Virus record (IMG/VR): IMGVR_UViG_3300046812_000237 | Span: 1 to 60,051 of that record | Strand: one strand, 5' to 3' | Origin: a virus | Length of the DNA stretch: 60,051 nucleotides | Shown here: positions 5,525 to 60,051 of the stretch, in pieces | Numbering within the stretch: position 1 is the first letter of the stretch | How the letters are laid out: every line of letters starts with the position of its first letter | The notes under the pieces: model-generated | Told to the model about the DNA's origin: nothing | What the model saw: the letters and a program-made list of their open reading frames with translations, nothing else | Database searches by the model: none | Made by a program: the position numbers and the translations under genes

Positions 5525-6318
5525 GCAACGAATCGGAGGAATTTTGGTCAGCCCATCCGTGCAACGCGCGCCGCGGGAGACTCGCCGCTGGCGATGAGGT
5601 CTATTTCGAACAGATTCGCCGGAACAAGGCCATCGCCGAGCCGCACCTGCTGCCGTTCATGGAAACGAGCCGATGGCGCGAGAAGGAGGTGCTCGACGTC
5701 GGCTGCGGTCTCGGGACGCAAGCGGTCTGGTTCGCCGAGAATGGCGCGTGGGTGACGGCCTGTGACTTCTCGCACGACTCACTCGCGCTGGCGGAGCGGC
5801 ACGCCGCGACGCAGTCGGACCTTGTCCGCGATCACATCCTGCTCAAGCCCCTCGACTTCGACCGCGGCATCTACCCGCGACACCATTACGACCTGATTTG
5901 GGCGTGGGGGACGTTGCACCATATGCTCACGCCGGCGCGCAACCTGCGGGCCCTGCGGGCTCACTGTGCCGGCCCGAACACGGTGCTGAAAGTCATGGTC
6001 TACCACCGAAAGTCTCTGAAGGTCTGGAGGCTTATGGCCAGACACGGCCGCGACTGGCGGAAGTGGACCGAGGCCAACGGGCCCGTGCCTATCTCGGATG
6101 CTTACACCGTCAAGGAAGCTCGCGCTGCGGTCGAACTGGCCGGTTGGCGCGTCGATAGCGTGCGAGTTACGCATATTTTCCCGTGGGCATTAAAGCCTTA
6201 CAAGCAGGGGCGGTACGAAAAGGCGTTTCCGTGGAACGTTATGCCTGAAAAGTGGAACAAATACCTGGAATCCCGGTACGGTTTTCACATTTTGATCGAA
6301 GCGAGGCCAGCCTTATGA
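5521..6318 (+). CDS. Class I SAM-dependent methyltransferase
   Basis: 265 aa. Motif I is VLDVGCGLGTQAVWFAE (about residues 60-75), the acidic strand end VTACDFSHDSL follows, and IWAWGTLHHM is the post-II/IV region typical of Methyltransf_11/25 small-molecule enzymes. It lacks an (N/D)PPY motif, so it is not a DNA adenine methyltransferase. It opens the sugar/glycan cluster (ATGA overlap with the 6-dehydrogenase), so a sugar, glycan or nucleotide-sugar substrate is inferred. Confidence 0.8.
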   Translation: MSNESEEFWSAHPCNARRGRLAAGDEVYFEQIRRNKAIAEPHLLPFMETSRWREKEVLDVGCGLGTQAVWFAENGAWVTACDFSHDSLALAERHAATQSDLVRDHILLKPLDFDRGIYPRHHYDLIWAWGTLHHMLTPARNLRALRAHCAGPNTVLKVMVYHRKSLKVWRLMARHGRDWRKWTEANGPVPISDAYTVKEARAAVELAGWRVDSVRVTHIFPWALKPYKQGRYEKAFPWNVMPEKWNKYLESRYGFHILIEARPAL

Positions 6319-7544
6319 AAATAGCGGTAATCGGGCTCGGGAAGTTGGGTCTCCCCATCGCCTGCGCCCTAGCAGAGAAGTGCGAGGTAATCGGCGTCGA
6401 CCGGGACCCGCGCGTGCTCGAGGCCGTTGACACAGGTGCCGCGAACGGCGAGCCCGGCGTGAACGTCGTCAGCGTGGACCGGATCAAGAAAGTCACCTCC
6501 GACGCCGCGGCTGCGGTTGCGGCCAGCGACTTTTCGCTCGTGATCGTGCCCACACCCTCCGACCGCAACGGACGGTTCAGCAACGAGTACGTGCTCGCCG
6601 CCTGCCGGGAGATTGGCAAGGGACTGGTAAGCAATCCGCACCACACCGTCGTGATCGTTTCGACGGTCATGCCAGGGTCTATAGACTCCGAGATTCTCCG
6701 CACTCTCGAGTATGCCTCTGGACTTCGCGCCGGCGAGGACTTTGGACTCGTCTACAGCCCGCAGTTCGTCGCGCTTGGCTCGGTGATTCACGACTTCACG
6801 CACCCGGACCTAATCCTGATCGGCAAGTATGGCCACACCAAGGCCGAGGGCGTCATCGCCATGTACGATCGCATCCTCCGCTCGCTCCCGCAGATTGCCG
6901 TCACGACTCCCATCAACGCGGAACTGGCCAAGCTATCGCTCAACTGCGCGGTGGCCTCGAAGATTCACTTCTCGAACCAACTGGCGCGCGTCGTCGAACT
7001 CATCCCAGGCGCCGACGTCGACGTGATTACCGACATCATCGGGACCGACCGCCGGATCGGCAAGGCCTACCTCCGCGCCGGCATCATGTACGGTGGTCCC
7101 TGCTTCCCCCGGGACGTGGAGGCGCTCGCCACATTGCCCGGCGCGACCTGGTTCTGCCGACTGGCCGAACACAACGACGATTCGCTCGCGGCGCTGTTCC
7201 GGACGGTCCGGGCAACGGTCGGAGTTATCGGCATCCTCGGCACTAGCTACAAGGTCGGAAGCAATGTGACCGAGCGCGCGGTTGGGACTATTCTCTGCGA
7301 TTACCTCCGCGACGCCTGCCAGCGCGAGGTGCACACAGACTACATGCAGACCGCCGAGGAGGTCATCGCCCTGTCGGACACCGTCATCGTCACTCTTGAC
7401 GACATGGACTACCGGAGGGTCCCGCGCGAAGTCTGGACGAGCAAGCCGCGGGTGGTCATCGACTGCTGGCGTTCGCTGCAGCACCTCGACCGCTGCCACG
7501 AGCACCTGACCTACATTCCGATAGGGATTGGACCGCGCCCATGA
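6315..7544 (+). CDS. UDP-glucose / GDP-mannose 6-dehydrogenase family
   Basis: 409 aa. An N-terminal Rossmann NAD site GLGKLGLP (residues 7-14), the VPTPS strand at about 79-82, the central dimerisation helices ([12 protein letters not shown]), and the catalytic cysteine in GGPCFPRD (Cys263) are all present. The C-terminal UDP-binding domain has [12 protein letters not shown]. The family oxidises the C6 alcohol of a nucleotide sugar to a uronic acid using two NAD+, in the cytoplasm. The start overlaps the upstream stop (ATGA). Phage copies of this enzyme are uncommon. Beside glycosyltransferases it probably supplies UDP-glucuronate or a related donor. The substrate cannot be told from sequence. 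Confidence 0.9.
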
Positions 7545-7981
7545 GCGGACGGCCTCAGACTCCAATCTTCTCGCGACTGTCCCTTGACGTTTCTACGGGC
7601 TGCTGGAACTGGACCGGAAGCAAGGATAGTTGCGGTTACGGCACGGTCTGGGACCCGTTCACCCGAAAGTGCTGGCGCGCGCATCGCCTCGTCGCGCGAC
7701 TATTCTTGGGGTTCGACGCAGCTACGGTTCTGAAGGTTCTTCATCACTGCGATAACCCTTCCTGCTGCAATCCAAAGCATCTATTCATGGGCACGCAGGC
7801 GGACAATGTTGCCGATGCCGCGCGGAAACACCGGATGCGTAATCACAATTCTGGAAAGCGCACTTGCAAGCACGGACACTGGCTGACTGGTGAGAATGTT
7901 TACCACTGGCGGGGTCAGAGATTTTGCCGCACGTGCCGAGCCAGCTACCTGAAAACCTATATCCGCTTGGAGGACAGATGA
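7541..7981 (+). CDS. HNH homing-type endonuclease
   Basis: 146 aa. [33 protein letters not shown] and [11 protein letters not shown] form the HNH_3 signature common to free-standing phage homing endonucleases. A second zinc-like set (C-x-H...CRTC) follows in the C-terminal third. It splits the nucleotide-sugar dehydrogenase from the glycosyltransferase, yet both junctions are clean 4-base ATGA overlaps, so it is well integrated in the operon and not an obvious recent insertion. Confidence 0.87.
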
Positions 7982-9159
7982 AAGTCCCTCTGTTGCTGTT
8001 GAGCGATTCGCCGGATTGTCCCTCCGGCCTGGCGCGCATCGGCCGCGACCTCGCGACGCGCCTGCACGAGGAACTGGGCGACCGCGTGGAGGTTGGTTAC
8101 CTCGGCCGCGGTGGCGTGGGCGGCAAGTTTCCCTTTCCCACATGGGTCGTACCTCACAATCTCTACGGGCTGAAGGACACCGCCGAGTGGGGCTCGACCA
8201 TCATTCACCAGGTCTGGCACGACTTCGCAGGCGAGCGGCAGGGCGTGGTGTTTTCCATTTGGGACCCGGGCCGGATGATATGGCTCTCGCGCCCGGAGTA
8301 CCTCAACGACTCCGCGGCCAAGGACTTTCTGCTAACTCCGCCGTTTGAGAAGTGGGGGTACTTCCCCATTGATGGCGAGACCGACTCCGGAGGCCTCGGG
8401 CTCATGGCGGCGCACGCCCTCAAGGGCTACGACCGCGTGCTGGCCTACACGCCCTATGGGTCGAAGGTCCTCTCGCACGTGCTCGAGCGCCAGGCCGGCG
8501 ACGAGGTCCCGTGGATCCCGCACATGCTCGAGGACGTCTGGTATCCGCGGCACCGCGACAAGGCCCGCGAGTATTTTTCCTACGCAAGGCACCACGTCGT
8601 CGTCGGCGTCGTCGCGACCAACCAGCGCCGGAAGGACTGGGGCCTGGCCGCACAGATCGGCAAGCAGCTCAAGGACGTCTACGGTGACCGCTTCCGCCAG
8701 TGGTGGCACATCGACCAGCCGGTCAAGGACTGGAACGTCATGGAGCTCTGCTCGGAGTACGGCCTCGAGGAGTGCACCATGGTGACCATGCCTCCGCAGT
8801 CCGACGACTGGCTGGCGACGGCCTATTCCTGCTGTGACGTCACGCTCGCGATCGGCTCGGAAGGTTTCGGGTATCCCATCGTCGAATCGCAGGCCTGCGG
8901 CGTGCCGGTGATTCACGGCAACTACGCCGGCGGAGCGGCGTTTGTCCCGACTGCCAATCTTATCGAACCGGTGGCCTACGTGATCGAGGGCCTGTCACCC
9001 ATCCGGCGCCCGGTGTTTGACGCCGACGCCTGGGTAGAGAAAATCCGCGGTCACGTCTACCCGGGCGGTCCGCAGCCCGGCAACATGACTCCGTTACATT
9101 GGCGCACGGTGTGGCCGAAGTGGCGTTCATGGTTCCTAGAAGGATTGGAGAGACTCTAA
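7978..9159 (+). CDS. Glycosyltransferase, GT4-like (GT-B fold)
   Basis: 393 aa, start ATG behind TTGGAGGAC. The N-terminal domain begins [18 protein letters not shown], a donor/acceptor loop typical of GT-B enzymes. The C-terminal domain has the E-x7-E type region [20 protein letters not shown]. This family transfers a sugar from a nucleotide donor to an acceptor in the cytoplasm. It lies in the cluster with a nucleotide-sugar dehydrogenase and two GT-A-like genes, so a uronate-containing glycan is plausible. The acceptor (host surface, virion or DNA) is unknown. Confidence 0.85.
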
Positions 9160-9160
9160 A

Positions 9161-9838
9161 ATGTTTTCTATCTGCATCAGTTACGTGGGAGGCCCGGACT
9201 ACCTCCGGCGCGCGGTCGATTCGCTCGGGGACTACAAGGACCGCGTCTGGGTCGCCGACTCGTCCGAGAGCAATCCTCCGTTGAACCCTCTGGACTTCGG
9301 CCTCGGCTTAGACCAGATCGTGCAACCGATCATTCCGCAGTCCCACACACAGAGCCATAACTGGTTTCGGGCCCGCGCGATCATGGCCGGCAAGCCTTTC
9401 TACATGGTCATGCACAATGACGCCGAGGCCAGCGAGGACATCATCGAGCAACTGACGGACATCGCCGCGGCAAAGGCCGGGGACAAGTGGGGGGTGCTGT
9501 TCACGAATTACGATTCACTGGCCGTATACAACACGCGCGCCGCGGCCGAGGTGGGCCCGTGGGACTGGAAGTTGTTTCCCTCTTACTACTCCGACAACGA
9601 CTACTATCGGCGATTGAAGCTGGCGGGCTGGAACCTGGTCGATACCTGCCTGCCGGTGAAGCACGAGGGCAGTCACGTCATCAACAAAATCGACAAGCAG
9701 GCCAAGTACCTGAACCACATGTTACTGTCGAACTTCGCGCGGGAGGCCTACATTCGCAAGTGGGGCGGACCGCCAGAGTCCGAGACGTACCTCAAGCCGT
9801 TCAACGGGGAATTGGAGAACCCCTACCCCGATGAGTGA
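9161..9838 (+). CDS. Glycosyltransferase, GT2-like (GT-A fold)
   Basis: 225 aa. It opens with FSICISYVGGPDYLRRAVDSL, a GT2-type first strand and helix. MVMHNDAEAS is the nucleotide-sugar/metal (DxD-like) position, and a C-terminal YYSDNDYYRRLKLAGW matches the acceptor-side ED/ND motif of GT2 enzymes. Short for the family, but the core is complete. It starts two bases after the GT4 stop. Confidence 0.8.
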   Translation: MFSICISYVGGPDYLRRAVDSLGDYKDRVWVADSSESNPPLNPLDFGLGLDQIVQPIIPQSHTQSHNWFRARAIMAGKPFYMVMHNDAEASEDIIEQLTDIAAAKAGDKWGVLFTNYDSLAVYNTRAAAEVGPWDWKLFPSYYSDNDYYRRLKLAGWNLVDTCLPVKHEGSHVINKIDKQAKYLNHMLLSNFAREAYIRKWGGPPESETYLKPFNGELENPYPDE

Positions 9839-25118: not shown

Positions 25119-27692
25119 TTAGTTCCCGACGCACTGGTAGCGGATGCTGTCGGTTCCCGTCCCGGTAATTGTGAAAGCGCTCCCCGACGACTGCACAATC
25201 TGCGTCGCCTGTGTAGCTGTCAGGTCCGCCGCCGTGCACGTGTAACTGGTATTCGAAGTGAACACCGCCGCCCCGGTCAGCGTCACGGCGCAGCTTGTGC
25301 CCAGTACGCAGCTATCGACTATCGCATGCGCGTTGGTGGCCTGGGTGCCGGAATGATTGTAAAGAATGGGACCGGCCGCGAGATTCGGGACTGGCGTGGT
25401 CGAGGTGATGTCGAGCGGCACCGTGCCCGTGGCGATCGTTATTTTTAACGGGATGGCGGTCTCCCATTGGTTGCTGGCGTTTTCCTTGAGGCATCCATCG
25501 GTGCCGGTGGGATTGGCCTCTGAGCAGATGATGTTTTCGCTGTTGCCGGCCCGGAGCAAGCCGTCGTCGGCCACGTCGGCCACCTGCGGGATAATCATGC
25601 GACTCTGCCCGTTGGTCTGGTCGGTGAGCACCCACTGCTGTGCGGCCGTCTTCCGCATCCGCCACTTGGTCGTGCCGCGGTCGCGCAAGGAGATGCCGAG
25701 GTCCTGCGATACGGTCAGGCCATCGTCGAGGGTAAACTCAAGGGTCGCGTCGAGGAAGTTGCGCGCGGTCGCGTTGCCGGTCTGCGAGACATCGAACACG
25801 TTATTGGTGCCCGTGGTGTCCCGCTGGTGGAATCCCGCGGAGTCGGCGTACCACCAGAGTACGGGCGAGGCGCTGCCAGAGTAGACCCGAAAGCCACCGG
25901 TGCCGCCGTTGGCGACGTTGTTGATCGCAAAGATACCCGTCCCGCGCGTGTAGACGTCCGTGCCGGCGCCCGTGGTAAGAACTTCCCGGGAGTCTCCGGT
26001 GTTCGAGTCGCGCAGCACGAAAGTGTTTGCGGCTGACTTTTCCCAGGCCCACTTGGCTGTGCCCTGGTCGAGCCAGCGGACCGAGCCAATCTGCGAGATC
26101 GACGTGCCGGTATCGCTGATGTCCACGTTCATGGTGGCGTTGGCGTAGTTCTTGATGAGGAACGGCTTGCGCCCGGTGTTGGGCGTGATGACCAGTTCGG
26201 TCGAGCGGTTACCCAAAGCGCCGCGCGCCCCGACCACGAGACCGTCATTCACGACCGCCGTGCCGCCGGTAGTGATGTAGGCGGGCAGCGCATCCTGAAA
26301 GCCGCCGTCTCCGGCCCAGGACCAGTCCGAAAGGTAAGTGCTCGAAGTCGCATAGGACTCGCTCGTGACTGTGTTCGAGACCGCCACGACGGTAGCGCCA
26401 GTCGTGCGGAGGCCCTTGATCTGCACGTTCTTGGTGAGTTGGACGCCGGTTTCGTCAATCTCGACCGCGGTTTCGCTCGCCCCGTTCATCTGAATCTCGC
26501 TGCCATGCAGGAGCACGTTGCCCCAGTTATTGATCTTGAGGCCGATGGCGCTGTCGACGCTCGCCTCCATGTAGGTCGAGATGTCGGTATCGCGGCAGCG
26601 CTGCGCCCCGCCAGAGTCTCCGGCAAGTTCGATGCTCGGCTGACCCGTTCCCGGGAAGTTGTAGACTCCGCCAAGGATCTGCCCGCCGAGCAGGGTGTGA
26701 CCGTCACAAGCGAAAACGAGCGGTCGTGCGCCGACCTGCGATCCCTCTACCCACACGTTGTCGAGCAGGAAGGGCCCGGAGATGCCGCTCGTCGACCCGA
26801 TGCGGACTCCGATCGTGTTCTTGAATTGCATGACCTTTACGTCCCGGAAAAGCGGCTGGTTCAGGACGCCGTCAATGTTAATCATGGCCGTGTGCACAGC
26901 GCCGAACAGGACTCCGTCGGCACCGTAGACGAGGAAATTGTCGAGCGCGAAATAGTCCTGTCCGGTCTCGCCGTTGCTGATGACCGAATCGACATCTGCC
27001 GTCGAGGAGACGATGATCGTGGCACCCCCGGTCGACCCGTTGGCCGACGTCGAGTTGCCCACGTTGAACCCGACAATGCCCCCGCCGTTATGGACCACGA
27101 TGCACGAGCCGGTGGGACTGTTCACGTTGCAGGTCAGAATCGTGTCCGGGTACATCTGCAGCGTCACGGGCTTGGTCGCGCTGCCAAGGTCGATCTGCGA
27201 GGTGAAGGTCTCGCGGTAGTGCTGCGGCGTGCAGACGATGCCCCCGGTACTCGGCAGCGCCGCCACCGCGGCCGCAATGTTCATGTAGGTCGAACCGTCG
27301 ACACAGAGGATGCCCGTGGAAGGTGGGACCGTCAGGAGGTCGATGTTGTTGACCGTGTACGGCGTCAGCGCGGGCGTGCCGCCGGACAGGCGCACGTCAT
27401 AGGAGTTGCCGGCCACACCGTAGAAGCGCCAGGTGCCGTTGGTCGCCGCGGCGAAAGGGTTAGCCTTTGCGCCACCGACGTTGTTCGTGTAGATGGTCGC
27501 GATGTTGGTCGTGCCAGCGTCGTACACCGTGACCGTGCAGCTCGCCGAAATAGCCTGATCCCCGGGCGCGCCAAGCTGGAAGCAAAAGCCGTAGTTGTCC
27601 CCGGGTATCGGGATATAGGTCTGCGCCCGCGCCGCACTGGCACCGAACGTCAGTGCCAGCACAGCGAGGACGCTAAAGAACAAGCGTCGCAT
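25119..27692 (-). CDS. Tail fibre/spike-like beta-helix protein with signal peptide
   Basis: 857 aa from the ATG at 27692, chosen because GGAGGAG lies just upstream and because it begins with a clean Sec signal peptide (RRLFFSVLAVLALTFG then ARA-Q, cleavage near residue 24). Then a beta-rich fibre N-domain, a probable right-handed beta helix (about 150-420, e.g. GVRIGSTSGISGPFLLDNV), a repeat-rich stalk with RWLDQGTAKW and SLRDRGTTKWRM-like repeats, and a Cys-containing C-terminus. Such stalk repeats are typical of phage fibres. A signal peptide on a tail protein is unusual and suggests export to the periplasm. Confidence 0.75.
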   Translation of the reverse strand: MRRLFFSVLAVLALTFGASAARAQTYIPIPGDNYGFCFQLGAPGDQAISASCTVTVYDAGTTNIATIYTNNVGGAKANPFAAATNGTWRFYGVAGNSYDVRLSGGTPALTPYTVNNIDLLTVPPSTGILCVDGSTYMNIAAAVAALPSTGGIVCTPQHYRETFTSQIDLGSATKPVTLQMYPDTILTCNVNSPTGSCIVVHNGGGIVGFNVGNSTSANGSTGGATIIVSSTADVDSVISNGETGQDYFALDNFLVYGADGVLFGAVHTAMINIDGVLNQPLFRDVKVMQFKNTIGVRIGSTSGISGPFLLDNVWVEGSQVGARPLVFACDGHTLLGGQILGGVYNFPGTGQPSIELAGDSGGAQRCRDTDISTYMEASVDSAIGLKINNWGNVLLHGSEIQMNGASETAVEIDETGVQLTKNVQIKGLRTTGATVVAVSNTVTSESYATSSTYLSDWSWAGDGGFQDALPAYITTGGTAVVNDGLVVGARGALGNRSTELVITPNTGRKPFLIKNYANATMNVDISDTGTSISQIGSVRWLDQGTAKWAWEKSAANTFVLRDSNTGDSREVLTTGAGTDVYTRGTGIFAINNVANGGTGGFRVYSGSASPVLWWYADSAGFHQRDTTGTNNVFDVSQTGNATARNFLDATLEFTLDDGLTVSQDLGISLRDRGTTKWRMRKTAAQQWVLTDQTNGQSRMIIPQVADVADDGLLRAGNSENIICSEANPTGTDGCLKENASNQWETAIPLKITIATGTVPLDITSTTPVPNLAAGPILYNHSGTQATNAHAIVDSCVLGTSCAVTLTGAAVFTSNTSYTCTAADLTATQATQIVQSSGSAFTITGTGTDSIRYQCVGN

Positions 27693-29984: not shown

Positions 29985-31055
29985 TTATCCAGTGATCCCG
30001 TAGAGTTGGGCGTGGTAGCGTGGGTTCAGGGTGATGGCCGCAGCCGCGAGAACCTGCCCCGCGACCTTGGTGTTGCCCTGAGCCGGCTTCCAGCCGGTAA
30101 AGCCAAACGAGAACTTCGGCGACTTCGAGACGTAGAAGTTGAAGAACGGCTTGCGCGCGTTCATCCACCAGAGAGTTTCGGAGGTCACCGTCGGGTAAAC
30201 GACGACTGCTCCGTTGCTCATCTGCGTCAGGTAGGTCACCGCGTTGGGGTCACCGGTGCCCGAGATGTACGTCCCGGGCGCGTAGCGGGTGGCAATGAGC
30301 GTCGCAGAATTGAACTTCAGACCGTTGAAGCCGATCTTCGGATCCTGCGTGTCATTGAACCGCTGCTGCGTCTGGAACTTTTCCTTGATGTAGGCCAGGC
30401 CCTTGCGGGTGGTCACACCGAGGTTGGGCTCGATGTTGCCGAACGAGGCGTTGCCGTAGGTGTTTTCCAGAGTCGAGTACTGGATGGCACCGTTGACGTT
30501 TGTGGGGACGCTGTTCAGCGCCGAGCCTACCTGCCCACCGCGGGTGATTCCGCCGTAGGTCGCGTAGGTAGCGCCATCCCAGGAAGCCGTCGAATTGTCA
30601 TTCAAGGCCTCGGCGAGACCGTTGAAGTTGGGGGTGTAGCCTGCGGCCTGCCCGTTCAGGTAGATCGAGATGCCCATGAACGCGCCCATCGTCAGATAGG
30701 CGTTGGTCATGCGCGAATCCACCAGGCGGAAAGCCGCGAGCGGGCCGGTGTTCAACACTTCCATGTCTTCGAGGGAGAGCGTGACGTTCACCTCGTAGAA
30801 CTTCATGTTGAACTGGCAGCCCTGTTCGACCTGTTTTTCCGTGATGTCGAACTGCTTGCCCTTCAGATACGAACCGCCGACCATGCCGTCGTAGTAGAAG
30901 TTCTCTTGGATGAGAGAGCCTCCACCAAAGTCCTCGCGGGTGTTGACCTTGAAATAGGCCAGCGCCGGGTCGGCTTGGAAGATCGAGTCGACCAGTTGAG
31001 GACTCTCGCGGATGTAGCGGCGAGTAGATACGTTCAGTTGATCCAGTTCAGCCAC
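29985..31055 (-). CDS. Major capsid protein, HK97-fold candidate
   Basis: 356 aa. It starts LNVSTRRYIRESPQLVDSIF, a pattern I associate with podovirus capsid proteins. It continues with GGGSLIQENFYYDGM and the mixed alpha/beta organisation of a P-domain and A-domain (ITLNPRYHAQLYGITG at the end). It follows a scaffold-like gene and precedes a decoration-like gene, the canonical order. Confidence 0.78.
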   Translation of the reverse strand: MAELDQLNVSTRRYIRESPQLVDSIFQADPALAYFKVNTREDFGGGSLIQENFYYDGMVGGSYLKGKQFDITEKQVEQGCQFNMKFYEVNVTLSLEDMEVLNTGPLAAFRLVDSRMTNAYLTMGAFMGISIYLNGQAAGYTPNFNGLAEALNDNSTASWDGATYATYGGITRGGQVGSALNSVPTNVNGAIQYSTLENTYGNASFGNIEPNLGVTTRKGLAYIKEKFQTQQRFNDTQDPKIGFNGLKFNSATLIATRYAPGTYISGTGDPNAVTYLTQMSNGAVVVYPTVTSETLWWMNARKPFFNFYVSKSPKFSFGFTGWKPAQGNTKVAGQVLAAAAITLNPRYHAQLYGITG

Positions 31056-31089: not shown

Positions 31090-31845
31090 CTAGACGCCCG
31101 CGTTGGTGTTCCACGTATCCGCAAAGTTGCGCGCTCGTTGCCCCTCGGATAATGCAGCCGCTTGATCGCCCGCCGGCTTCTGCCAGAATGGAGAGGGTTC
31201 CGCCGCATCGGCCGGAGCCGAGTCGATCGGAAGGTTGCGCTTGGAGAGTTCCGCCGAGACGCCGGCTTTGATGCCGTCCTCGATGGATTTCTTCTGCGCT
31301 ATCTCCTGCTGTGCAGTCACCTTGGGTGCGATGACTTCCTTGTAGGCCGCGTCGATTGACAGGTTCTTTTCGAGGGCAAGTTTCTCAAGTGCATCGAGGT
31401 CCAGCGCCTCGCCGAAGCGAGAGCGATAGTCGTCCATAACGCGGACTGCGGCCTTGGTGATGTTCACACCAATCGCCGTGACCTTGTTACGTTCTGCCTC
31501 AAGTGCCTTGTCGAGTTGCGCCTGGGTCAAAGTAACCGTGCCATCGTTAGTCGGGGTTGCCCTTCGCGACGGATCGACGCCAGTCTTCGTCTCGAGTTCC
31601 TTGACGTAGGTGACGTTCGCGTCGTGCCACTTCTGCCACTTGTCGCGATTCTCTGCGAGAGCGGCAGCCTGGTTGCGGAGGTCGTCCATTGAGCGCGAGA
31701 ACTCAGACTGGCGGGTCACGCCGTCCTGAATCCCCTTTGCAAAATTCGGGTTGTCCAGAGCCTTCAACATCGTGTCTCGAACGCTTGCGTCGAGACCGGC
31801 CTGTTGAGCCAGCTCCGTTAAGTACGCTTTCGGGTCTACGGGCAT
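31090..31845 (-). CDS. Scaffolding protein
   Basis: 251 aa; the ATG at 31845 is preferred over 31860 because GGAGG is well spaced from it. Almost entirely helical and charged: a coiled coil in ELAQQAGLDASVRDTMLKAL and DDLRNQAAALAENRDKWQKW, an ELETK region, and a basic/acidic C-terminus. It lies directly upstream of the capsid gene. Scaffolds direct procapsid assembly and exit or are cleaved; no protease gene is evident here. Confidence 0.75.
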   Translation of the reverse strand: MPVDPKAYLTELAQQAGLDASVRDTMLKALDNPNFAKGIQDGVTRQSEFSRSMDDLRNQAAALAENRDKWQKWHDANVTYVKELETKTGVDPSRRATPTNDGTVTLTQAQLDKALEAERNKVTAIGVNITKAAVRVMDDYRSRFGEALDLDALEKLALEKNLSIDAAYKEVIAPKVTAQQEIAQKKSIEDGIKAGVSAELSKRNLPIDSAPADAAEPSPFWQKPAGDQAAALSEGQRARNFADTWNTNAGV

Positions 31846-31908: not shown

Positions 31909-32307
31909 TTACTGCGGTGGTGCGCCCGGGGGTCCCGGAGGCGGTGCTGCGCCTGCAGGTGGTGCGCCTGCCGGTGCTCCTCCGCCGGTCATCCCCGAGT
32001 TCTGCTGCGACTGCCTCATCGCCTGAATCACGGCCTGCCGAATCATCGAAGAAATCTGCGCCGCGATCGGAACGAAGGTCGGTAACATCTGCGCCAGTTG
32101 CGCCGCGCCCGATTCAACTAACTGGGCCTGCTGCGCGACCAGCGTTAAAAACTGAGCGCCTGGCGGCACTCCCTGCGGAGTGCTCTGCGGATTGTCCGCG
32201 AGCCCGGTATAGTCCGGAGTCTTCATTCCCGGCGGAGGCGGAGGCGGAGCATCTAGCCCCGGATTCGTTCCTTCGGACGGACTTGCCGGACCCATGCTTA
32301 TCGCCAT
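31909..32307 (-). CDS. Pro/Gly-rich hypothetical protein
   Basis: 132 aa with a PPPPPPG segment near the start and a GAPAGAPPAGAAPPPG tail around a helical middle (LTLVAQQAQLVESGAAQLAQ, PIAAQISSMIRQAVIQAM). Found in many phages before the scaffold gene; role unknown. Confidence 0.6.
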   Translation of the reverse strand: MAISMGPASPSEGTNPGLDAPPPPPPGMKTPDYTGLADNPQSTPQGVPPGAQFLTLVAQQAQLVESGAAQLAQMLPTFVPIAAQISSMIRQAVIQAMRQSQQNSGMTGGGAPAGAPPAGAAPPPGPPGAPPQ

Positions 32308-32313
32308 CTGCCG

Positions 32314-32418
32314 TTAGCCCTTCTTGGTGGCGCCGGCCTTGCCCATCGGCGCGGTCGCGGGGGTCTTCACCATCCCCATCTTTCCGCCGCCCTTGGTCAT
32401 TCCGCCTTTTTTCTTCAT
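32314..32418 (-). CDS. Tiny basic Gly/Lys-rich protein
   Basis: 34 aa from ATG 32418 with a clear GGAGG. KKKGGMTKGGGKMGMVKT, then a Lys-rich end. Probably disordered and nucleic-acid binding by charge. It is in the cluster of small basic head-region genes. Confidence 0.55.
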   Translation of the reverse strand: MKKKGGMTKGGGKMGMVKTPATAPMGKAGATKKG

Positions 32419-32435
32419 TACGTCCTCCGTGTGGT

Positions 32436-32618
32436 TTATGAAGACTTCGCGGGCGAAACAGACGCCCCGAGCTTCCGAGCCTTCGAAAGTAAAATAGCCC
32501 GCTTCTGTTTCAGCGCGCGCGCCGGGCCGAACTTCCTCCGGGTGCTCGCCAGAATCGAGGGCGGATTATCCTTCAACTCTTTTCCCACGCCTTCGAGGAT
32601 CGACTTGCTATCAGCCAC
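32436..32618 (-). CDS. Small basic head-region protein
   Basis: 60 aa, helical and basic (SILASTRRKFGPARALKQKR, then ILLSKARKLG). Matches a small family common in phage head modules. Overlaps the next gene by 8 bases. DNA binding is a guess from charge. Confidence 0.65.
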   Translation of the reverse strand: MADSKSILEGVGKELKDNPPSILASTRRKFGPARALKQKRAILLSKARKLGASVSPAKSS

Positions 32619-32808
32619 GTTTGGCGACCTTTTCCGCTGCCAGCGCGAACCGTGCCTTCTTGCCGATCTTCCCGGATTTACCGGCGTCCTTGTGGGCCAG
32701 AGCTGAGACAGACATGCCGCGCTTTTTAGCCATGCGGGTGAATGAGCCTTTGGTGCCCTTCTTTTCCATCCGCTCGCTGGCTTCCTGCATCCACTTTTCT
32801 GCAGCCAT
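32611..32808 (-). CDS. Small basic head-region protein
   Basis: 65 aa behind GGAAGGTGA. SFTRMAKKRGMSVSALA and GKSGKIGKKARFALAAEK match a small basic phage protein often encoded beside the previous family. Highly basic; could associate with packaged DNA or the portal. Unproven. Confidence 0.65.
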   Translation of the reverse strand: MAAEKWMQEASERMEKKGTKGSFTRMAKKRGMSVSALAHKDAGKSGKIGKKARFALAAEKVAKRG

Positions 32809-32877
32809 GAATCACCTTCCGCAGTGAGTGAACCACAAATGGCAGTGGCACATGCAACTCCATTCGTTCAATGGTTC

Positions 32878-34104
32878 TCACGGAACTACGGCAGTCGCGT
32901 TCGCGGTTTGTCCGTTTGGTCCCGTCGCGCTTACCGGGAAGCGTGTTCCCGTGGGATTGTTGGTCTGCGTGATCGTGCAAACGAGGTTGCTGCAGGTCAT
33001 CGACATCGTAGCCAGGGGCGCGGTGATCGTGACGACGGCGCTCCCGGACTTGGTTGGGTCTGCGACGCTGGTAGCCTTGGCAGAGAAGGCTGTCCCTGGT
33101 GTCGTGCCTGCCTTGTAGAGGCCCGTAGTGTCGATCGTTCCGCCGGTTGCCGTCCACGTCACGGCCGTATTCATCGTTCCACCTACTGTAGCGGTGAATT
33201 GCTGAATCGCGTTTTCGGCCAGCGTCGTCGTCGCAGGAGAAACTGTGACGGTGACGGGCTGCGTGCCGGTCGGCAGGAAATTCACGTCTACCCAGTAATT
33301 CGCGGTGGGCGAGGAAAGTTTGGTCGGATACGCGGAGGTCGAGCCATAGGCATACACGCCCGCGCTTACAGGTGCGCTGAGAGGCCCCACCACAAGTGGC
33401 GTCGTGAACGCTGGCTCGTTCCAGGCATACTGCGCCGTGTGGATGCTGGCGGTGTAGACCATGCCCGGCGTGATGATGATGGGCGAGGGGAAGGTGAACG
33501 TCTGCCAGCCAGATACCGTCTCGTTCGTGAACGTGCCGTTGCCAAGGCTATTTCCATTCGGGTTCCAGAGATGCGCGGTGTGCGGGCCGGTGGCGTTGGT
33601 CGCCTTGAAGAACTTGATGCCGACGATCTCACCAGGCACCGAGGTGGAGAACTTGATCCCGAGTTCGACCGAGTTGCCATCGTTGCCGGTCACATTCGCC
33701 GGTAGCTGCGTGTTGGGCCAGAAACTAAGCGTGCTGCCGCCGCCGCCCGTGCTGCCTCCGGGAATCGTCGCAGACACTTCCACCGAATTAGCCGACTCAT
33801 TCCCGAGCGAATCTATCGCCGTGATGACGTAGTAATAGACCTGCCCCGCCGCGATCGAAGTGTCGAGATAGGACAGCGTCGTGATGACCGACGTGTTGAG
33901 CGTAACGTAGGGTCCGCCGCTGGTATTGCTGCGCTTGGCGTTATAGCTGACGACGTTCGGCGTGACCGAAGCAAGCCAGGTCAGCGAGACTGAGTGCGTG
34001 GTGACTTGTGCTGCCGGTGCGCCGGGCGGGGTCGTGGCCGCAGCACGCGCAGCGAATGGAACAAGAAGCAGTGTCAGGAGCGCCAGTTTTAGAGTGTGCG
34101 ACAT
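32878..34104 (-). CDS. Exported multidomain protein: signal peptide, FN3, DUF4082, Ig-like
   Basis: 408 aa. A Sec signal peptide (TLKLALLTLLLVPFAARA, cleavage near residue 21). A fibronectin-III-like domain at about 25-115 (SVSLTWLASVTPNVVSYNAK, then YYYVITAIDSLGNES). A DUF4082-type domain at about 125-270 (VELGIKFSTSVPGEIVGIKF, HLWNPNGNSLGNGTFTNETV, YAYGSTSAYPT, YWVDVNF). A Big_2 Ig-like domain near 275-360, then a short Cys-containing beta segment. All are extracellular adhesion or carbohydrate-type modules. It overlaps the LuxR-like gene by 16 bases. Confidence 0.75.
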   Translation of the reverse strand: MSHTLKLALLTLLLVPFAARAAATTPPGAPAAQVTTHSVSLTWLASVTPNVVSYNAKRSNTSGGPYVTLNTSVITTLSYLDTSIAAGQVYYYVITAIDSLGNESANSVEVSATIPGGSTGGGGSTLSFWPNTQLPANVTGNDGNSVELGIKFSTSVPGEIVGIKFFKATNATGPHTAHLWNPNGNSLGNGTFTNETVSGWQTFTFPSPIIITPGMVYTASIHTAQYAWNEPAFTTPLVVGPLSAPVSAGVYAYGSTSAYPTKLSSPTANYWVDVNFLPTGTQPVTVTVSPATTTLAENAIQQFTATVGGTMNTAVTWTATGGTIDTTGLYKAGTTPGTAFSAKATSVADPTKSGSAVVTITAPLATMSMTCSNLVCTITQTNNPTGTRFPVSATGPNGQTANATAVVP

Positions 34105-34430
34105 ATTCTTATGAGGTCCTTCCTCGTGCCGCCTGCGATTCCGAGCCGTCTGAGCAATTCTCCGACGTGAAACTTGGCCGTGCGCTCGGTGATGTTCAGA
34201 GCCGTGCCAATCTCTTTATTCGACATCTCTTGCAGTATCAGATTCAGCACTTCCCGCTCACGTACTGTAAGGTACACGTCTATGGGAGACGCGGTGCGCT
34301 CATCAATCTCGCGCTGAATTGCCATGATCTGCGCAGGCAGCTCCACCAGTTGCCTGTGACGCAGCGCATCCCGCTGGACAATAAGGTCGTCCAGGCTGCG
34401 GCGTGCCGGATTTAAGATCGTAACGCTCAT
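34089..34430 (-). CDS. LuxR/GerE-type DNA-binding protein
   Basis: 113 aa. Residues about 52-105 are a full GerE helix-turn-helix: LTVREREVLNLILQEMSNKE, IGTALNITERTAKFHV, LLRRLGI. No receiver or autoinducer domain; instead a short helical N-terminus. It sits between two exported-protein genes with 4- and 16-base overlaps, so it is co-transcribed with them. It could regulate the late genes or host genes, or sense the state of that module. Function inferred. Confidence 0.85.
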   Translation of the reverse strand: MSVTILNPARRSLDDLIVQRDALRHRQLVELPAQIMAIQREIDERTASPIDVYLTVREREVLNLILQEMSNKEIGTALNITERTAKFHVGELLRRLGIAGGTRKDLIRICRTL

Positions 34431-35740
34431 GGCCCGGTGATGAAGTTCCCTAGCTGCCCGCCTGCCGTGGTGATGCCCTTGAACGAGGCGACGCTGATTC
34501 CCCAGTTGACTGTGCCGCCCGTTGAAGCCGAAACAGTTTGTGCTCCAGACGGTGCGTTCGCGCGAAACTCCTGCATCGGATTGCCTGATGCGTAACTCGG
34601 CGTGGCGACGTAGTTGGTGCCGACGGTGAGTAGCGGGCCGGTGTTGGTGATAGCGATGGCGGCGTTAAAGTTTCCAGCCAGTGCTGGCGAGAACGATGCA
34701 CTCGTGACGCTGGTAGCGCCGGTGGCCGTGCCGATTTTGCCCGTCTCACAGGCTCCTAATTGCACGCCAGAGACCTCCAGCACAACGACACGGTTGAAGC
34801 TGCCGCCGGAACCAAACGTGACCGTAGTGACATCAGTAGCGTTCGTGTTCGTGTTGCCAGTTGTCTCCCATATTTCTGTTGCAAACTGTGTGTTCTGCCG
34901 TGAGCCGGAGCACTGCGCCCAGGTGTCGCCAGCGGTGTTGGCGATGCCCGTGACAGAGATACCTGTGCCACTAATGTCAGTCATGGCCACAAGTTTGTGT
35001 CCGGCAGCGTGAGAAGCCGCAGCGGAGGCTACAGTGGTTGCGGTCGTGCCCGAGCCAGTGACTTCATCTATCAGGCATGCCCCAGTCTGGCAAGTGCGAA
35101 TCTCTAGAACCGCCGTGTTCCACGGGGCACTGGCGTTGACGCCCACGGTTTGCGTGGTGAATGCGCTCACAGGGGCATTGGTGTCGGCGCAGGAAACACT
35201 GTTTCCGGTGACACTCGTAACCGTGGTCATCCCGGTCGGTGCTTGATTCACGTTCGTCGCGGTGTTGCTGCCGCCGCAGCCGATGACCCAGGAGGTAGCG
35301 TTTGTGTTCGTGAGCGTGATGCCTGCGTAGGAAAGCGTCGCGTTGTTCACGTTGTCGGTGACGGTCGCGCCACCCACGCTGACCGATTGGCAGGTGAGTC
35401 CTTGGTTCACGCCGCGATAGACAAGAATGATCGTCCCGCTGGCGTTGGTAAATCCGGTGCCCGTCTCGGAGGATGTCTGTGCGATCTTGCACGCCACACG
35501 GGCAGACTCACTGGAACCCGTCGCGCCGGAAATACTTACCCATCCCGCTGGAAGGTTAGGCGCGGTAGAGTTGCCACTGCGGTAGGCGTAGGCAACAAAC
35601 AGATCCCCGGCGACGTGAGCTGGTGGCGTGCATCCGGTGCTGGCCGCCTGGCATGAACCCACGCGCGTAATTGCCGTGATGGCCTGTGCCGGACGAGCCA
35701 GCAACAGAAGTGGCAGAAGTAGGAGTAGCAACTTTCGCAC
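34427..35740 (-). CDS. Exported beta-rich Cys-containing protein
   Basis: 437 aa. A leucine-rich Sec signal peptide (RKLLLLLLPLLLLARPAQA, cleavage near 20). The mature part is Ser/Thr/Gly/Asn-rich beta with about ten cysteines, suited to a periplasmic or extracellular location. Two halves look alike, with ATSVTSASF and ATDVTTVTF type strands following 'VTGIANTAGDTW' and 'SGVQLGACETG', suggesting tandem domains. No enzyme motif seen. Confidence 0.7.
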   Translation of the reverse strand: MRKLLLLLLPLLLLARPAQAITAITRVGSCQAASTGCTPPAHVAGDLFVAYAYRSGNSTAPNLPAGWVSISGATGSSESARVACKIAQTSSETGTGFTNASGTIILVYRGVNQGLTCQSVSVGGATVTDNVNNATLSYAGITLTNTNATSWVIGCGGSNTATNVNQAPTGMTTVTSVTGNSVSCADTNAPVSAFTTQTVGVNASAPWNTAVLEIRTCQTGACLIDEVTGSGTTATTVASAAASHAAGHKLVAMTDISGTGISVTGIANTAGDTWAQCSGSRQNTQFATEIWETTGNTNTNATDVTTVTFGSGGSFNRVVVLEVSGVQLGACETGKIGTATGATSVTSASFSPALAGNFNAAIAITNTGPLLTVGTNYVATPSYASGNPMQEFRANAPSGAQTVSASTGGTVNWGISVASFKGITTAGGQLGNFITGP

Positions 35741-36168
35741 TAGCGTGTCACCCGGAAATTCAGTGTGACCGTACCTCCAGGAGTGATGTCAGCCCCGGTG
35801 CGGTTGCAAACTTTCACGTTTACCGTGTCAGCGGTCGGATAGGGAACCAGAAGAAGTCCTCCCGTGGTGGCTCCGGTATAGCCGGTCACGCCTGTCGGGT
35901 CTGCGTTGATAGTTAACTGAATCGTGTCCGTGGTGAGCAGGCCGGTTGCCGCTGCGGTTTGAGCCGTGCCACAGGTGCCGGAGGTCACGGCGGTCGTGTT
36001 GAGCGCGAGCGTGCCGCTGGCCACCGTCTTGGTCGCAGTGTAGTAGACCCGGCCCACGGTGGTGTCTTGGACCTGCGCATGCTGGACGGCAAGGTACGGT
36101 CCAGTTAGCAGCAAAGCAGCGACCGAAATGTAGAAGACAACTTTGGCAATTCTATCGAGTCTTCGCAT
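35740..36168 (-). CDS. Membrane-anchored or exported beta-rich protein
   Basis: 142 aa behind GGAGC. An N-terminal hydrophobic anchor with a basic lead (RRLDRIAKVVFYISVAALLL) and no clear cleavage site, then a Thr/Gly-rich beta domain ending GGTVTLNFRVTR. Same island as the other exported proteins. Probably displayed on the periplasmic side. Confidence 0.65.
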   Translation of the reverse strand: MRRLDRIAKVVFYISVAALLLTGPYLAVQHAQVQDTTVGRVYYTATKTVASGTLALNTTAVTSGTCGTAQTAAATGLLTTDTIQLTINADPTGVTGYTGATTGGLLLVPYPTADTVNVKVCNRTGADITPGGTVTLNFRVTR

Positions 36169-36170
36169 GG

Positions 36171-37115
36171 TCAGCTCCTCTGGAAGCCGATGCAGGAAAA
36201 TGTGTACGTCTTGCCCGTAGTCGGTGTCCCGTGCCAGGTCATCGCGAGCGTGGTCTGCGCGGGAGTGTTGTCTATATCCGATCTGATGTCGTTCCCGCCG
36301 GTCTGCGAGCAGACGTAAATCGGAGTCGATGCTCCTCCGGTGTCAAAGTCACCGTCCGCGTAGGTGTAGGTGATCGTCGGGTTAGCCGCGATACCCGTGC
36401 CGCCGGTTGTGATCGTGAAGATGAAAGCGTTGTCGCTGCCGCCGATCGTGCCTGCCGCCGCTGTGCTGCCCCATCCCGCGCCGAGGGCAAACGACATGGA
36501 AGTCGGCGACGTAGTGTAGTCTGCGCTGAAGTTCAACCGGCCGAGTTCCATGGCCCGGCTTCCGGAGTTGATGTTGAACCCGGTCTGTTTGGCGCTGTGC
36601 GTCGTTATCATCCCGCTGTTGCCGCTGCCCGGCGCAAAGGCAAACGTCGTTGTATCGGTGGTGTCCGTCGCATTGCAGTACACGCCACCGTCGTTCTCGT
36701 TCGCGCAGTTCCAGTTATTACCCATGGGTGCGGCGGTATTTGTTCCACCCATGAAACCAGTGAACGTATTGGTCTGGGTAAAGTAAATATCGCAAGGGTC
36801 TCCGCTGCCGTCGCAGTTCGCGATGTTGGACGAGGTCTGATTCACACCGCCGAAGCTGCCGGTGTTGTTGAACTGAAGTTGGGTGGGAGACCCTCCCGGT
36901 AGCGCACCGCCGCCGGCGCTGCCCACCTTCACCCAGACGCCAGCCACGCAGTCGTACAGGTCGCCAGTAGCGGAGTTGATGCCAAAGGAAAATGGAGCAC
37001 AGGCGCCGGTAGGCGCACCTGTGAAGCGAATCGTCGTGGTGTTGCCGTTCTGCGCGCTGGCCGTGACGGCGCCGAAACTCAACAGGAGCAGAAGCGCTAA
37101 CAGTGCTTTTTTCAT
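36171..37115 (-). CDS. Exported beta-rich protein with eight cysteines
   Basis: 314 aa from the ATG at 37115 behind GAGGTAGCC. An upstream frame extension exists but lacks the signal peptide logic. Sec signal peptide KKALLALLLLLSFGAVTASA, cleavage before QNGN. The mature part has fibre-like strands (LPGGSPTQLQFNNTGSFGG is a stalk repeat seen in phage fibres) and eight Cys residues. Could be a fibre or an exported coat. Late-operon position beside the portal. Confidence 0.72.
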   Translation of the reverse strand: MKKALLALLLLLSFGAVTASAQNGNTTTIRFTGAPTGACAPFSFGINSATGDLYDCVAGVWVKVGSAGGGALPGGSPTQLQFNNTGSFGGVNQTSSNIANCDGSGDPCDIYFTQTNTFTGFMGGTNTAAPMGNNWNCANENDGGVYCNATDTTDTTTFAFAPGSGNSGMITTHSAKQTGFNINSGSRAMELGRLNFSADYTTSPTSMSFALGAGWGSTAAAGTIGGSDNAFIFTITTGGTGIAANPTITYTYADGDFDTGGASTPIYVCSQTGGNDIRSDIDNTPAQTTLAMTWHGTPTTGKTYTFSCIGFQRS

Positions 37116-37117
37116 GG

Positions 37118-37438
37118 CTACCTCGTGGTGATCGTTGCGCCGACCAGCGTTGGTCCTGCAGCGCTGGCCACCAGATAGATTTGCCTGAGCAGGAGCAGGT
37201 TTCCGGTTACTGGCGGAATCGTGACAAACTGCGCGGCTTGTAGCTTTATGCCCCAATGCGACGAGTCGACGTCGCTGTTCCCAATGTAGACGACGACAGC
37301 CATGCCGTCCGGATCCTCCTGTAACTCGACCGACTCGGCATGGTCCTCGATGTCCGTGTCGATCGCGTGCAGGAGGGAGTACAAAGACTGCGCGACGTTG
37401 GTAACGCTTACCGCCAGCATGCGTGGCGTGGCTCTCAT
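37118..37438 (-). CDS. Hypothetical protein
   Basis: 106 aa, ATGA-coupled to the upstream gene. Alpha/beta: VTNVAQSLYSLLHAIDTDI, then VELQEDPDGMAVVVYIGNSD. No signal peptide, unlike the next genes. Possibly a small virion protein. Confidence 0.6.
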   Translation of the reverse strand: MRATPRMLAVSVTNVAQSLYSLLHAIDTDIEDHAESVELQEDPDGMAVVVYIGNSDVDSSHWGIKLQAAQFVTIPPVTGNLLLLRQIYLVASAAGPTLVGATITTR

Positions 37439-37731
37439 TGTGGTGTTCTCCCCTCGTCCGCCAGGGCTCCCGGCGGTATGGCAATTCGTGACTGCTGCTC
37501 CGCGCGCGCTTGCTGCTGCTGCGCGTTGAACGTATCCCGCGCCATCTCGAGAATCCCGTAAAACAGCATGGGATCCCGCGGCCCGGCCATCTGCAATTCC
37601 CCGCTGGCCACGTTGTAGACGATGTGCAGCTCGACCGAGGCCTGCTTTTGGTCGACAGTGCCCTTGGCCCGCGCGAGGATGCTCTGCAAGTCGGCGGGCA
37701 GTCCCCCGTTTACTTTTGTGGGATCGACCAT
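37435..37731 (-). CDS. Small hypothetical protein next to portal
   Basis: 98 aa starting one base after the portal stop. Polar alpha/beta with Gln-rich C-terminal helix (RDTFNAQQQQARAEQQSR). This type of protein is often found after phage portals; function unknown. Confidence 0.62.
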   Translation of the reverse strand: MVDPTKVNGGLPADLQSILARAKGTVDQKQASVELHIVYNVASGELQMAGPRDPMLFYGILEMARDTFNAQQQQARAEQQSRIAIPPGALADEGRTPQ

Positions 37732-39603
37732 TTAAGACTCCTGTATTCCGCCGGCCGAGGTCATCGAGGGCATCTCCTGCCCGGAGGCCTTGCGGCCCGC
37801 TGGCGATACGGCCATGCCGAGGCCCATGCTCTGCTGCGCCTTGAGCCGGTCAGTGATGGTCTTGGCTTCTGACGGAGGATTGCCGACGTTGGGCACGCCG
37901 AGTTTGTCGAGCAGCGTCCAGATGTCCAGCCAGCCGGCGCGCGCCAGTTGCACATAGAGTAACTTGGTCGTTATTTCCGAGGCCGCAAGGAGGGAGCCCG
38001 GAGCCACGTGGTAGGTGAACTGCCGCAGAAACTCACGCGCGCGTTCATACCGCGGGCGTATAAAGCCCCGGGCCTCATCGTCGGCAGTTACAAAGTCGGG
38101 GATCATGGTGCCGGGGTCGTAGTCGAAGTCCTCGAAGGTCATTCCGTCGGGACCGAGGGCGGCGACGCGCTTGCCCGTGTCGTAGAACTGGAAGAAGTTC
38201 GAAAGCAGCATGGTGGCGAACTCGCGGATAAAGGCCTCGAGCACGCGCGAGCGCAGCCGGATCGACGGGCTCATCGACTCGACAATCTTCTCGACCGTCT
38301 CCGAGGTCGGTATCTGCCCGAGCTTCATCATCTGCGTCAGGTCGCGGGTGCCGGCGAGGATGTCCATTTCGTCGCGCAGGTCCTTGATCGACTCGACCAC
38401 CGAGACGTCCATTGTCTGCGTCTGGCCGACCGTCGCCTGCCGCCCGGGCAGTGTCCGCAGCTTCAGGCCGGCGCGCCGGGTGTCGATCGTATCCATCGCC
38501 GACCGCGGCATGGAATTGTTCTCGGCGATGAGGTCAGGGCGGAAAACCTTCTGGTTGTGGTCAGCCACGCCGCGCACGAGCCGATTGAGTTCCTTCTGCA
38601 GCGGCAGGGCGTCGAGCAGGAGCGGCTTGCCGAGGTAGGACCATGGCCACGGGTCCAGCGTCAGTTTCGACATCGGGAACATGCCGTGCCAGTAGATATT
38701 CGGGCCGTCACGCAGAACGGCGGTGCGCGTGAACACGATAGCCCGTCCACGCGGGTAGAGGGCTTCCCCGGGCTTCACCCAGTACGACCAGTTGGGATGG
38801 GCGTCCGGCGTGCCCTCTCCGACCCACACCGCGCGGCTCGATTTGTTGATGCTCTTGTCCTTCACGTAAATCTGAAACAGGTCCGCAGCGGGCACGTTGA
38901 TCGACTCCGCCGGTTTCGAGCCAATCGAGTCCCAGAACGGGCTCGAGGACATATTCAGCTTGGCCATGACCGTCTGGATCTTGTTGCGGGCCTTGGCCAC
39001 AAAGGAAGCGTCCCGGTCGGCCTTGATCCGGTCGGCCGCTTTCGGGTACTTCGCTTTCAGGTAGTTCACCGTGCGCTCGCGCCGGACCATCATGCCGAAA
39101 GCGTCCTGGCAGGAGATGTAGCTCGAGGGCCGGATGGGGAAACAGTCCTGCGGATTCTCAGCGATGAGGTCGATGTCCTCGATCTCCTCGTTCCACACCT
39201 GGTGCGCGTAGCCCGTGCCTCCGGGGACGTTCCAGCGGATGACGTCGGCAAACTTGAGGTCGATGTTGTTCTTCATGTACCAGCCGCTCGACAGTTTGCC
39301 GGCCATGTCCGCCTGCTGGTCAAAGCGCTTGTTGAAGGTGCGGTAGTCCCAGAACGGCTTGATGTCGGTGAGCGCGGCGACTAGGTCCGAGGCGATCTTG
39401 CCGAGGCGGTTGTCGACGAGGTCTGACAGGGCGGTCTGAGCGACGTCGGAACTGTAGTCGCCCATGATATTCGAGATAGTCTCCTGGATGCGGCTAAAGC
39501 CCTGCTGCGAGCGAAGGAAGTTCTCGCCCTCCTGCAGTGCTTCGGTCGCCCATCCAAGAACTGCGCTCAGATGTTGCTCGTCCGGGGGTGTCGGTTCAGC
39601 CAT
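37732..39603 (-). CDS. Portal protein (podovirus type)
   Basis: 623 aa. Long helical portal with clip/stem features: DLVDNRLGKIASDLVAALTD and IRWNVPGGTGYAHQVW. The wing region is DLIAENPQDCFPIRPSSY. It also has a SLGKPLLLDALPLQKELN-like segment and a long C-terminal helix pair. It lies between the terminase genes and the head module, as a portal should. Size matches P22-like podoviruses. Assigned from layout plus these regions. Confidence 0.8.
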   Translation of the reverse strand: MAEPTPPDEQHLSAVLGWATEALQEGENFLRSQQGFSRIQETISNIMGDYSSDVAQTALSDLVDNRLGKIASDLVAALTDIKPFWDYRTFNKRFDQQADMAGKLSSGWYMKNNIDLKFADVIRWNVPGGTGYAHQVWNEEIEDIDLIAENPQDCFPIRPSSYISCQDAFGMMVRRERTVNYLKAKYPKAADRIKADRDASFVAKARNKIQTVMAKLNMSSSPFWDSIGSKPAESINVPAADLFQIYVKDKSINKSSRAVWVGEGTPDAHPNWSYWVKPGEALYPRGRAIVFTRTAVLRDGPNIYWHGMFPMSKLTLDPWPWSYLGKPLLLDALPLQKELNRLVRGVADHNQKVFRPDLIAENNSMPRSAMDTIDTRRAGLKLRTLPGRQATVGQTQTMDVSVVESIKDLRDEMDILAGTRDLTQMMKLGQIPTSETVEKIVESMSPSIRLRSRVLEAFIREFATMLLSNFFQFYDTGKRVAALGPDGMTFEDFDYDPGTMIPDFVTADDEARGFIRPRYERAREFLRQFTYHVAPGSLLAASEITTKLLYVQLARAGWLDIWTLLDKLGVPNVGNPPSEAKTITDRLKAQQSMGLGMAVSPAGRKASGQEMPSMTSAGGIQES

Positions 39604-59793: not shown

Positions 59794-60051
59794 GTGGCCA
59801 AAGCAAAACCAGATTCTCTAGACGTGCGGGAGGTCGGTCTAGACCTCTCGCTAGAAGTTTTAATGGAAACATTCAAGGGCCTCGCGGAAGGAGTCGAGCG
59901 CCAGCTCGCCGCCGAGGACGATGAGGGCCTCGCCGCAGCCCGTGGAGACTCCGCTGGCGCGCTCGCCTCGATCATGGCCGCAGAAACCGAGCGACGGGAC
60001 CAGCTTGTCGAGTTTATGGGAGCGCTCGAAGAACGCGCCGGCCGAATCCGC
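59794..60051 (+). CDS. Gp157-family protein (5' part; gene crosses the contig join)
   Basis: GTG start behind AAGGAG; 86 codons here, then continues at the window start. Acidic start (LDVREVGLDLSLEVLMETF). Frame and sequence match the gene segment at 2-589 exactly over the 127-bp overlap. Confidence 0.85.
   Translation, partial: MAKAKPDSLDVREVGLDLSLEVLMETFKGLAEGVERQLAAEDDEGLAAARGDSAGALASIMAAETERRDQLVEFMGALEERAGRIR
59925..60051. repeat. Direct terminal repeat, right copy
   Basis: Same 127 bases as 1-127. See the left copy. Confidence 0.93.

Follow-up and report, generated by a model that had tools for sequence, protein, structure and literature searches.

The 60,051-base window analysed here is the whole of IMG/VR virus record IMGVR_UViG_3300046812_000237, a linear record in which a direct repeat of 127 bases occupies both termini (positions 1-127 and 59925-60051). 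The repeat makes it probable that the genome is complete, and host contamination was rejected as a source of the genes described below. Late genes lie on the minus strand in the order two-part terminase, portal, two small genes, a cluster of five genes that we call the island, small basic genes, scaffold, major capsid and tail genes. Three island proteins carry signal peptides of the Sec type and a fourth has a membrane anchor; tailed-phage fibres are generally taken to be assembled in the cytoplasm. We argue, at a probability of roughly 60%, that the island, as part of the late operon, is a variable locus for fibre/adhesin cargo, whose accessory proteins of receptor-binding type would be exported through Sec, cut by signal peptidase I (SPase I) and oxidised in the periplasm. 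Labels beginning with L (L003, L091 and so on) denote other phage loci that were compared with the window.

Structure of the locus

Table 1. Positions of the island genes and of the genes used as landmarks (aa, amino acids; HTH, helix-turn-helix).
Feature	Position	Strand	Remarks
Portal protein, left border of the gap	37732-39603	-	57-59% homologues in IMG/VR; 23% to annotated Tunturi_1/2 portal
Small protein, 106 aa, directly upstream of the 314-aa gene	37118-37438	-	Relatives precede 314-type genes in L006, L056, L071
314-aa Sec-signal fibre protein: signal peptide, N-module, fibre-like linker, orphan C-terminal part	36171-37115	-	
142-aa membrane-anchored protein: N-terminal hydrophobic helix and fibre tip domain (44-142)	35740-36168	-	
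437-aa Sec-signal protein, GTG start	34427-35740	-	
113-aa LuxR/NarL-type (GerE) HTH protein	34089-34430	-	Pfam GerE E=7e-14
408-aa Sec-signal protein, FN3-DUF4082-Ig-like	32878-34104	-	
Scaffold-like protein, right border of the gap	31090-31845	-	Precedes major capsid gene; homologues in relatives
Major capsid protein	29985-31055	-	phrog_9953 major head protein E=6e-16
857-aa signal-bearing tail-spike-like protein: signal, anchor domain (50-120), middle, tip (752-857)	25119-27692	-	

The five island genes between portal and scaffold are tightly coupled, with gaps of 2 and 2 nt and overlaps of 1, 4 and 16 nt, the side at 37118 included (Table 1). Since they are co-directional and coupled with the head genes, they are probably made late; a scan of positions 32300-37800, limited to promoters of the sigma-70-like type, found no such site, and terminators were not in excess. 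An initial annotation of the same DNA had placed three signal-peptide proteins (408, 437 and 314 aa) and one membrane-anchored protein in the head module. Their coordinates and signals are borne out, and to that list must be added the HTH gene and the signal-bearing 857-aa spike, both of which it omitted. An assembly titled Acidobacteria contains relatives of the capsid protein, as does one further genome of the sample from that phylum, and the nearest annotated phages are those of Tunturiibacter, all of which makes a member of the Acidobacteriota the likely host of this soil phage.

Export signals

The predicted signal peptides of the island are MKKALLALLLLLSFGAVTASA in the 314-aa protein, cut before QNGN, MRKLLLLLLPLLLLARPAQA in the 437-aa protein, cut before ITAI, and MSHTLKLALLTLLLVPFAARA in the 408-aa protein, cut before AATT. 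All three, and likewise that of the 857-aa spike, combine a positive n-region, a hydrophobic core and an AxA-type site as expected of substrates of Sec and SPase I; the 142-aa protein has a single hydrophobic helix at its N-terminus and no good site for cleavage. Signals were called with a home-made program that scores n-region charge, hydrophobic core and AxA-type site, and which, in a 50-kb region of E. coli, marks 7 of 13 exported, 1 of 6 inner-membrane and none of 19 cytosolic proteins. Lom is the sole protein that it marks among the late genes of lambda, and no large late protein is marked in T7, P22 or the examined part of N4, the only call in P22 being the Rz spanin.

The initial annotation had proposed comparison with related phage genomes as a check. 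Relatives were gathered through their portal and capsid proteins and dereplicated at 60% identity. Of 63 portal-scaffold gap proteins of at least 150 aa, 26 had a called signal, as against none of 157 core virion or packaging proteins, 11/63 tail-slot proteins and 5/112 others. The predicted segments precede SPase I-type sites, often AxA/Q (the slash marking the cut). Artefacts of gene calling were rejected as the origin of the signals, because core genes treated alike give none and because the cysteine parity described below is independent of calling. The island proteins depart from what is required of parts assembled into a capsid, namely cytoplasmic residence without an export signal. The earlier reasoning that capsid parts stay in the cytoplasm agrees with the absence of signals from the core proteins of relatives; that the exported proteins are foreign to virion biology is not supported, two of the four being tail-fibre/spike modules by sequence.

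Cysteine parity

Export and oxidation of a protein should leave the cysteines of its mature chain in pairs. The cysteine sets of the island had looked even at first reading, and the mature counts are indeed 8 (314 aa), 10 (437 aa) and 2 (408 aa), with 14 in the 857-aa spike. Even counts were found in 30 of 35 signal-bearing gap and tail proteins, against 27/65, 61/121 and 47/95 in three control classes, and a second set, dereplicated against the first, gave 27 of 31 for signal-bearing and 60 of 125 for non-signal proteins. In combination the signal-bearing proteins reach 57 of 66 (p about 6e-10), the controls 195 of 406. When cysteines within the signal are included, only 43 of the 66 are even; parity thus emerges once the predicted signal is removed, and therefore fits real cleavage. 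Signal cleavage and disulfide formation are both likely on this indirect evidence.

Modules shared with tail fibres and spikes

Directly after its signal the 314-aa protein has an N-terminal module of 45 residues (25-69) with a conserved pair of cysteines (residues 39 and 56) and the pattern GNTxTLxFxGxPxGxCxxxMxxINxxxGxxYxCxxGxW. This module recurs in seven other proteins, all of which have an N-terminal signal sequence (that of the 792-aa protein of L088 was judged by eye) and which vary in their C-terminal parts. Signal-bearing fibres of 831 aa in L088 and 305 aa in L091 end precisely with the tip domain of the 142-aa protein, at about 46% identity. The L091 protein consists of a signal, a 314-type N-module and a 142-type tip, and a 757-aa protein of L086 joins a signal and a 314-type N-module to the tip of the window's 857-aa spike (67% identity); in L073, L075 and L078, a signal-bearing protein carrying the spike anchor sits in the portal-scaffold gap itself. 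On account of these fusions and gap proteins, island and spike proteins draw on one set of modules.

Sharing with tail-slot proteins extends to the N-module of the 314-aa protein and the tip of the 142-aa protein and was not found for the 437- and 408-aa proteins. Judged by homology, the 314- and 142-aa proteins are tail-fibre/spike modules, and the notion that the island is foreign to virion biology finds no support. We would derive both from a modular family of signal-bearing fibres and spikes that may also have supplied the spike of the window. A search for the 314-type N-module in 297 genomes of the phylum of the Acidobacteriota bin, which had no positive control, found none.

Across relatives the portal-scaffold gap is a variable fibre/cargo locus, measuring about 0.6-8 kb, mostly small in distant relatives and often occupied by large proteins in closer ones. 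One gap protein, in L011 (6344-7270), has a lipobox-like LTGC in its signal and is possibly a phage lipoprotein.

Signal-bearing fibres in other phages

The tip of the 857-aa spike, which includes an invariant cysteine pair, was found in 40 IMG/VR loci, 30 of them with a called signal, and the N-termini of two more, in L105 and L106, also look like signals, with a longer n-region. Elsewhere in the signal-bearing set, a 1219-aa protein of L029 has Peptidase_S74, the tail-spike chaperone of phages, at its C-terminus, other members match PHROGs tail-fibre or tail families, and a fibre of L134 that carries both signal and tip follows genes read by eye as baseplate J and I, which is the position of a P2-like fibre. 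The spike anchor, whose alignment is too variable for scanning, had no match in the phage collection at 1e-3, and an AlphaFold model of the spike built with 9 sequences (predicted local distance difference test, pLDDT, 43) was too poor for its fold to be read.

The closest precedent is gp51 of Burkholderia phage Bcep1, a protein also present in BcepNY3, which has an N-terminal signal peptide, a fibre body and a tip homologous to that of the window's spike, with 4 cysteines after the predicted cut. Unlike the island it is a single fibre in a myophage tail module, without a portal-scaffold cluster, and its signal is a prediction from annotation and sequence. In RefSeq, gp51 already bears the note 'possible tail fiber; possible signal peptide domain', and further Bcep1 genes are annotated as possible tail fibres without a note on signal peptides. 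The presence of a signal on a tail fibre has thus been noticed before, which counts against the initial statement that no known phage system could be named that does this.

Tunturi_1 and Tunturi_2, isolated podophages of an Acidobacteriota host (Tunturiibacter), likewise encode consecutive large signal-bearing spike proteins. Signals were found on gp12, gp14, gp16 and gp17, with a lower score for gp13; gp12 has the spike anchor, and gp14 is annotated as a tail spike in Tunturi_1. In contrast to the window, their spike cluster (gp12-gp17) follows a tail protein, and their portal-scaffold gap measures 0.8 kb and has no signal proteins.

Other phage proteins that reach the bacterial surface are of different kinds. 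PblA and PblB of Streptococcus mitis phage SM1 are tail-type proteins that reach the bacterial surface as adhesins; unlike the island proteins they have no Sec signal peptide, attain the surface by means of lysis functions, and differ in host and sequence. Lom, Cor, Llp and SieA are exported or membrane proteins encoded by phages for superinfection or surface conversion; in contrast to the island they have no fibre modules, being small barrels, lipoproteins or membrane proteins. We found no paper describing exported tail fibres, in a search largely without subscription journals, the original Bcep1 genome paper among those left out. As far as we have checked, the clade-wide pattern, the sharing of modules between gap and tail slot and the cysteine parity appear to be new.

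The HTH and 408-aa cassette and the 437-aa protein

Of the FN3, DUF4082 and Ig-like domains attributed initially to the island at large, FN3 and DUF4082 are present in the 408-aa protein only. DUF4082 is matched at E=1.8e-40 and FN3 through PDB 3mpc at E=1e-12, the FN3 part also matching the carbohydrate-binding multimodular protein of PDB 5g56; its Ig-like part is weak in PDB (E=0.03), but segments of Acidobacteriota proteins share 59-61% identity with it. Of the 297 sampled genomes, 37 encode proteins that match parts of the 408-aa protein. The HTH and 408-aa genes recur as a pair in the otherwise different phage L080, at 85% and 94% protein identity respectively, where they lie beside a homologue of window 13.8-15.1 kb and not in the portal-scaffold gap; the pair thus occupies differing positions in different phages, as mobile pairs do. 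Ratios of nonsynonymous to synonymous substitution (dN/dS) of 0.075 (408-aa gene) and 0.118 (HTH gene) place both under purifying selection, with the 408-aa signal retained. The scan described above, confined to sigma-70-like sites, found for this cassette no promoter and terminator of its own such as a moron would have. We regard the pair as a mobile cassette of regulator and secreted protein, of probable bacterial origin within the Acidobacteriota.

PHROGs and NCBIfam returned almost nothing for the island proteins besides generic HTH matches, and a defence system is unsupported, PADLOC matching the HTH protein only, and weakly. The L080 contig also encodes, at 1873-3477 on the minus strand, a 534-aa protein that resembles GroEL-like chaperonins by eye at its N-terminus.

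The first half of the 437-aa protein is homologous to proteins of Rhizobium and Mycobacterium phages; a scan of viral contigs for close relatives found nothing, and an AlphaFold model of the protein alone (pLDDT 30) was too poor for a fold to be read. As part of the overall explanation it is probably a third exported adhesin-like protein. In Rhizobium phage RHph_Y5A, an unrelated siphophage, a protein with the 437-type domain is encoded together with a pectin-lyase protein between the head morphogenesis and protease/capsid genes (L047:12911-17895); unlike those of the window, the proteins in this corresponding slot have no signal peptides. In Rhizobium phage RHph_TM16 the 437-type domain opens a protein of 1661 aa (L046:14998-19983) whose annotation names DUF4082, so that neighbours in the window are fused there.

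Proposed working and alternatives

Under the cargo-locus reading, the island proteins would be late products of the head-gene operon that leave the cytoplasm through the host's Sec machinery, as sequence and cysteine parity suggest, and are cut by signal peptidase I. They would then fold with disulfides in the periplasm, and the mature proteins would be retained in or on the envelope until lysis, whereupon those of fibre type could dock on completed virions or bind glycans. The adhesin-like, exported character proposed at the outset is upheld to the extent that the proteins look genuinely exported and resemble adhesins. Docking on finished virions at lysis is plausible, favoured by the fibre modules, the canonical fibre positions and the gene content of the Tunturi phages; functions on the infected cell, such as receptor occupation, are favoured by the anchor of the 142-aa protein, the lipobox protein of L011 and the separate cassette. 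Both may hold, for different members.

The combination of a fibre or spike with a Sec signal that looks functional and with disulfide-like cysteine parity recurs in many unrelated phages, whose hosts belong to at least two groups and whose tail modules have several layouts. This recurrence points to one of two things: virion assembly may include a step outside the cytoplasm, or fibres may do double duty, serving also as exported proteins of the surface. We tentatively extend this to a wider proposal, that some tailed phages make receptor-binding fibres and spikes via Sec, form their disulfides in the periplasm and add them to virions at lysis, such that final assembly would be extracytoplasmic. 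Either the extracytoplasmic step or the double duty would change the annotation of host-range proteins in soil phages, many of which resemble secreted proteins of the host.

Several observations weigh against the cargo-locus reading. The signal caller is home-made, and its sensitivity in a small test set from E. coli was 54%. In L004, L009 and L014 the same slot is filled by signal-free spikes that share the anchor, or both anchor and tip, and no upstream start there could supply a signal; because of these homologues export cannot be obligatory for the spike family. Tunturi_1 and Tunturi_2 hold further unassigned structural proteins, potentially receptor-binding, and the 437- and 408-aa proteins have no anchor or tip module in common with the spikes. 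The 142-aa protein, with its probable membrane anchor, and the lipobox protein of L011 look like envelope proteins and not like virion parts.

This last point, together with the signals and even cysteines, the location of the HTH and 408-aa cassette elsewhere in L080 and the presence in the phage of a nucleotide-sugar dehydrogenase and a glycosyltransferase, would also fit exported envelope proteins whose target is the infected cell and not the virion. Fibre tips and adhesin domains, displayed or released, would then occupy receptors or glycans and prevent superinfection as well as re-adsorption to debris, an effect that T5 Llp, Cor and SieA achieve in other ways; the initial proposal of a coated cell or altered receptor access belongs here. 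We consider this less likely, since the same modules, the spike anchor and the S74 chaperone among them, are components of tail-slot spikes and fibres and stand in canonical tail-fibre positions in L134 and Bcep1. It is more improbable still that the proteins are secreted public goods, active on or binding to glycans and released before or at lysis to open the exopolysaccharide around soil microcolonies: an 899-aa gap protein of L003 looks by eye like a pectin-lyase spike, a Pfam rhamnogalacturonase/pectate-lyase domain is present in one member of the set, and the FN3 part of the 408-aa protein matches the carbohydrate-binding 5g56. Against this, Pfam and other family searches detected no catalytic domain in the island proteins of the window. 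Least credible is that the signal-like N-termini are unused for export, being hydrophobic virion-assembly segments or captured remnants, as spike homologues with and without the segment might suggest, given that SPase I-type sites follow the segments, that parity appears after removal of the predicted signal and that the 408-aa signal is kept at such a low dN/dS.

Other genes

On the plus strand of the window, positions 6315-9838 encode two enzymes recognised by Pfam, a UDP-glucose/GDP-mannose dehydrogenase and a glycosyltransferase; after them comes a gene resembling another glycosyltransferase by eye, and with these products the phage may also modify a surface glycan. Among the compared loci, signal-bearing proteins similar to trypsin-like proteases, with an ASHC motif, lie beside the terminase genes in L003 (3089-4030) and L028 (4685-5428), and similar genes are found in L020, L029 and L035.

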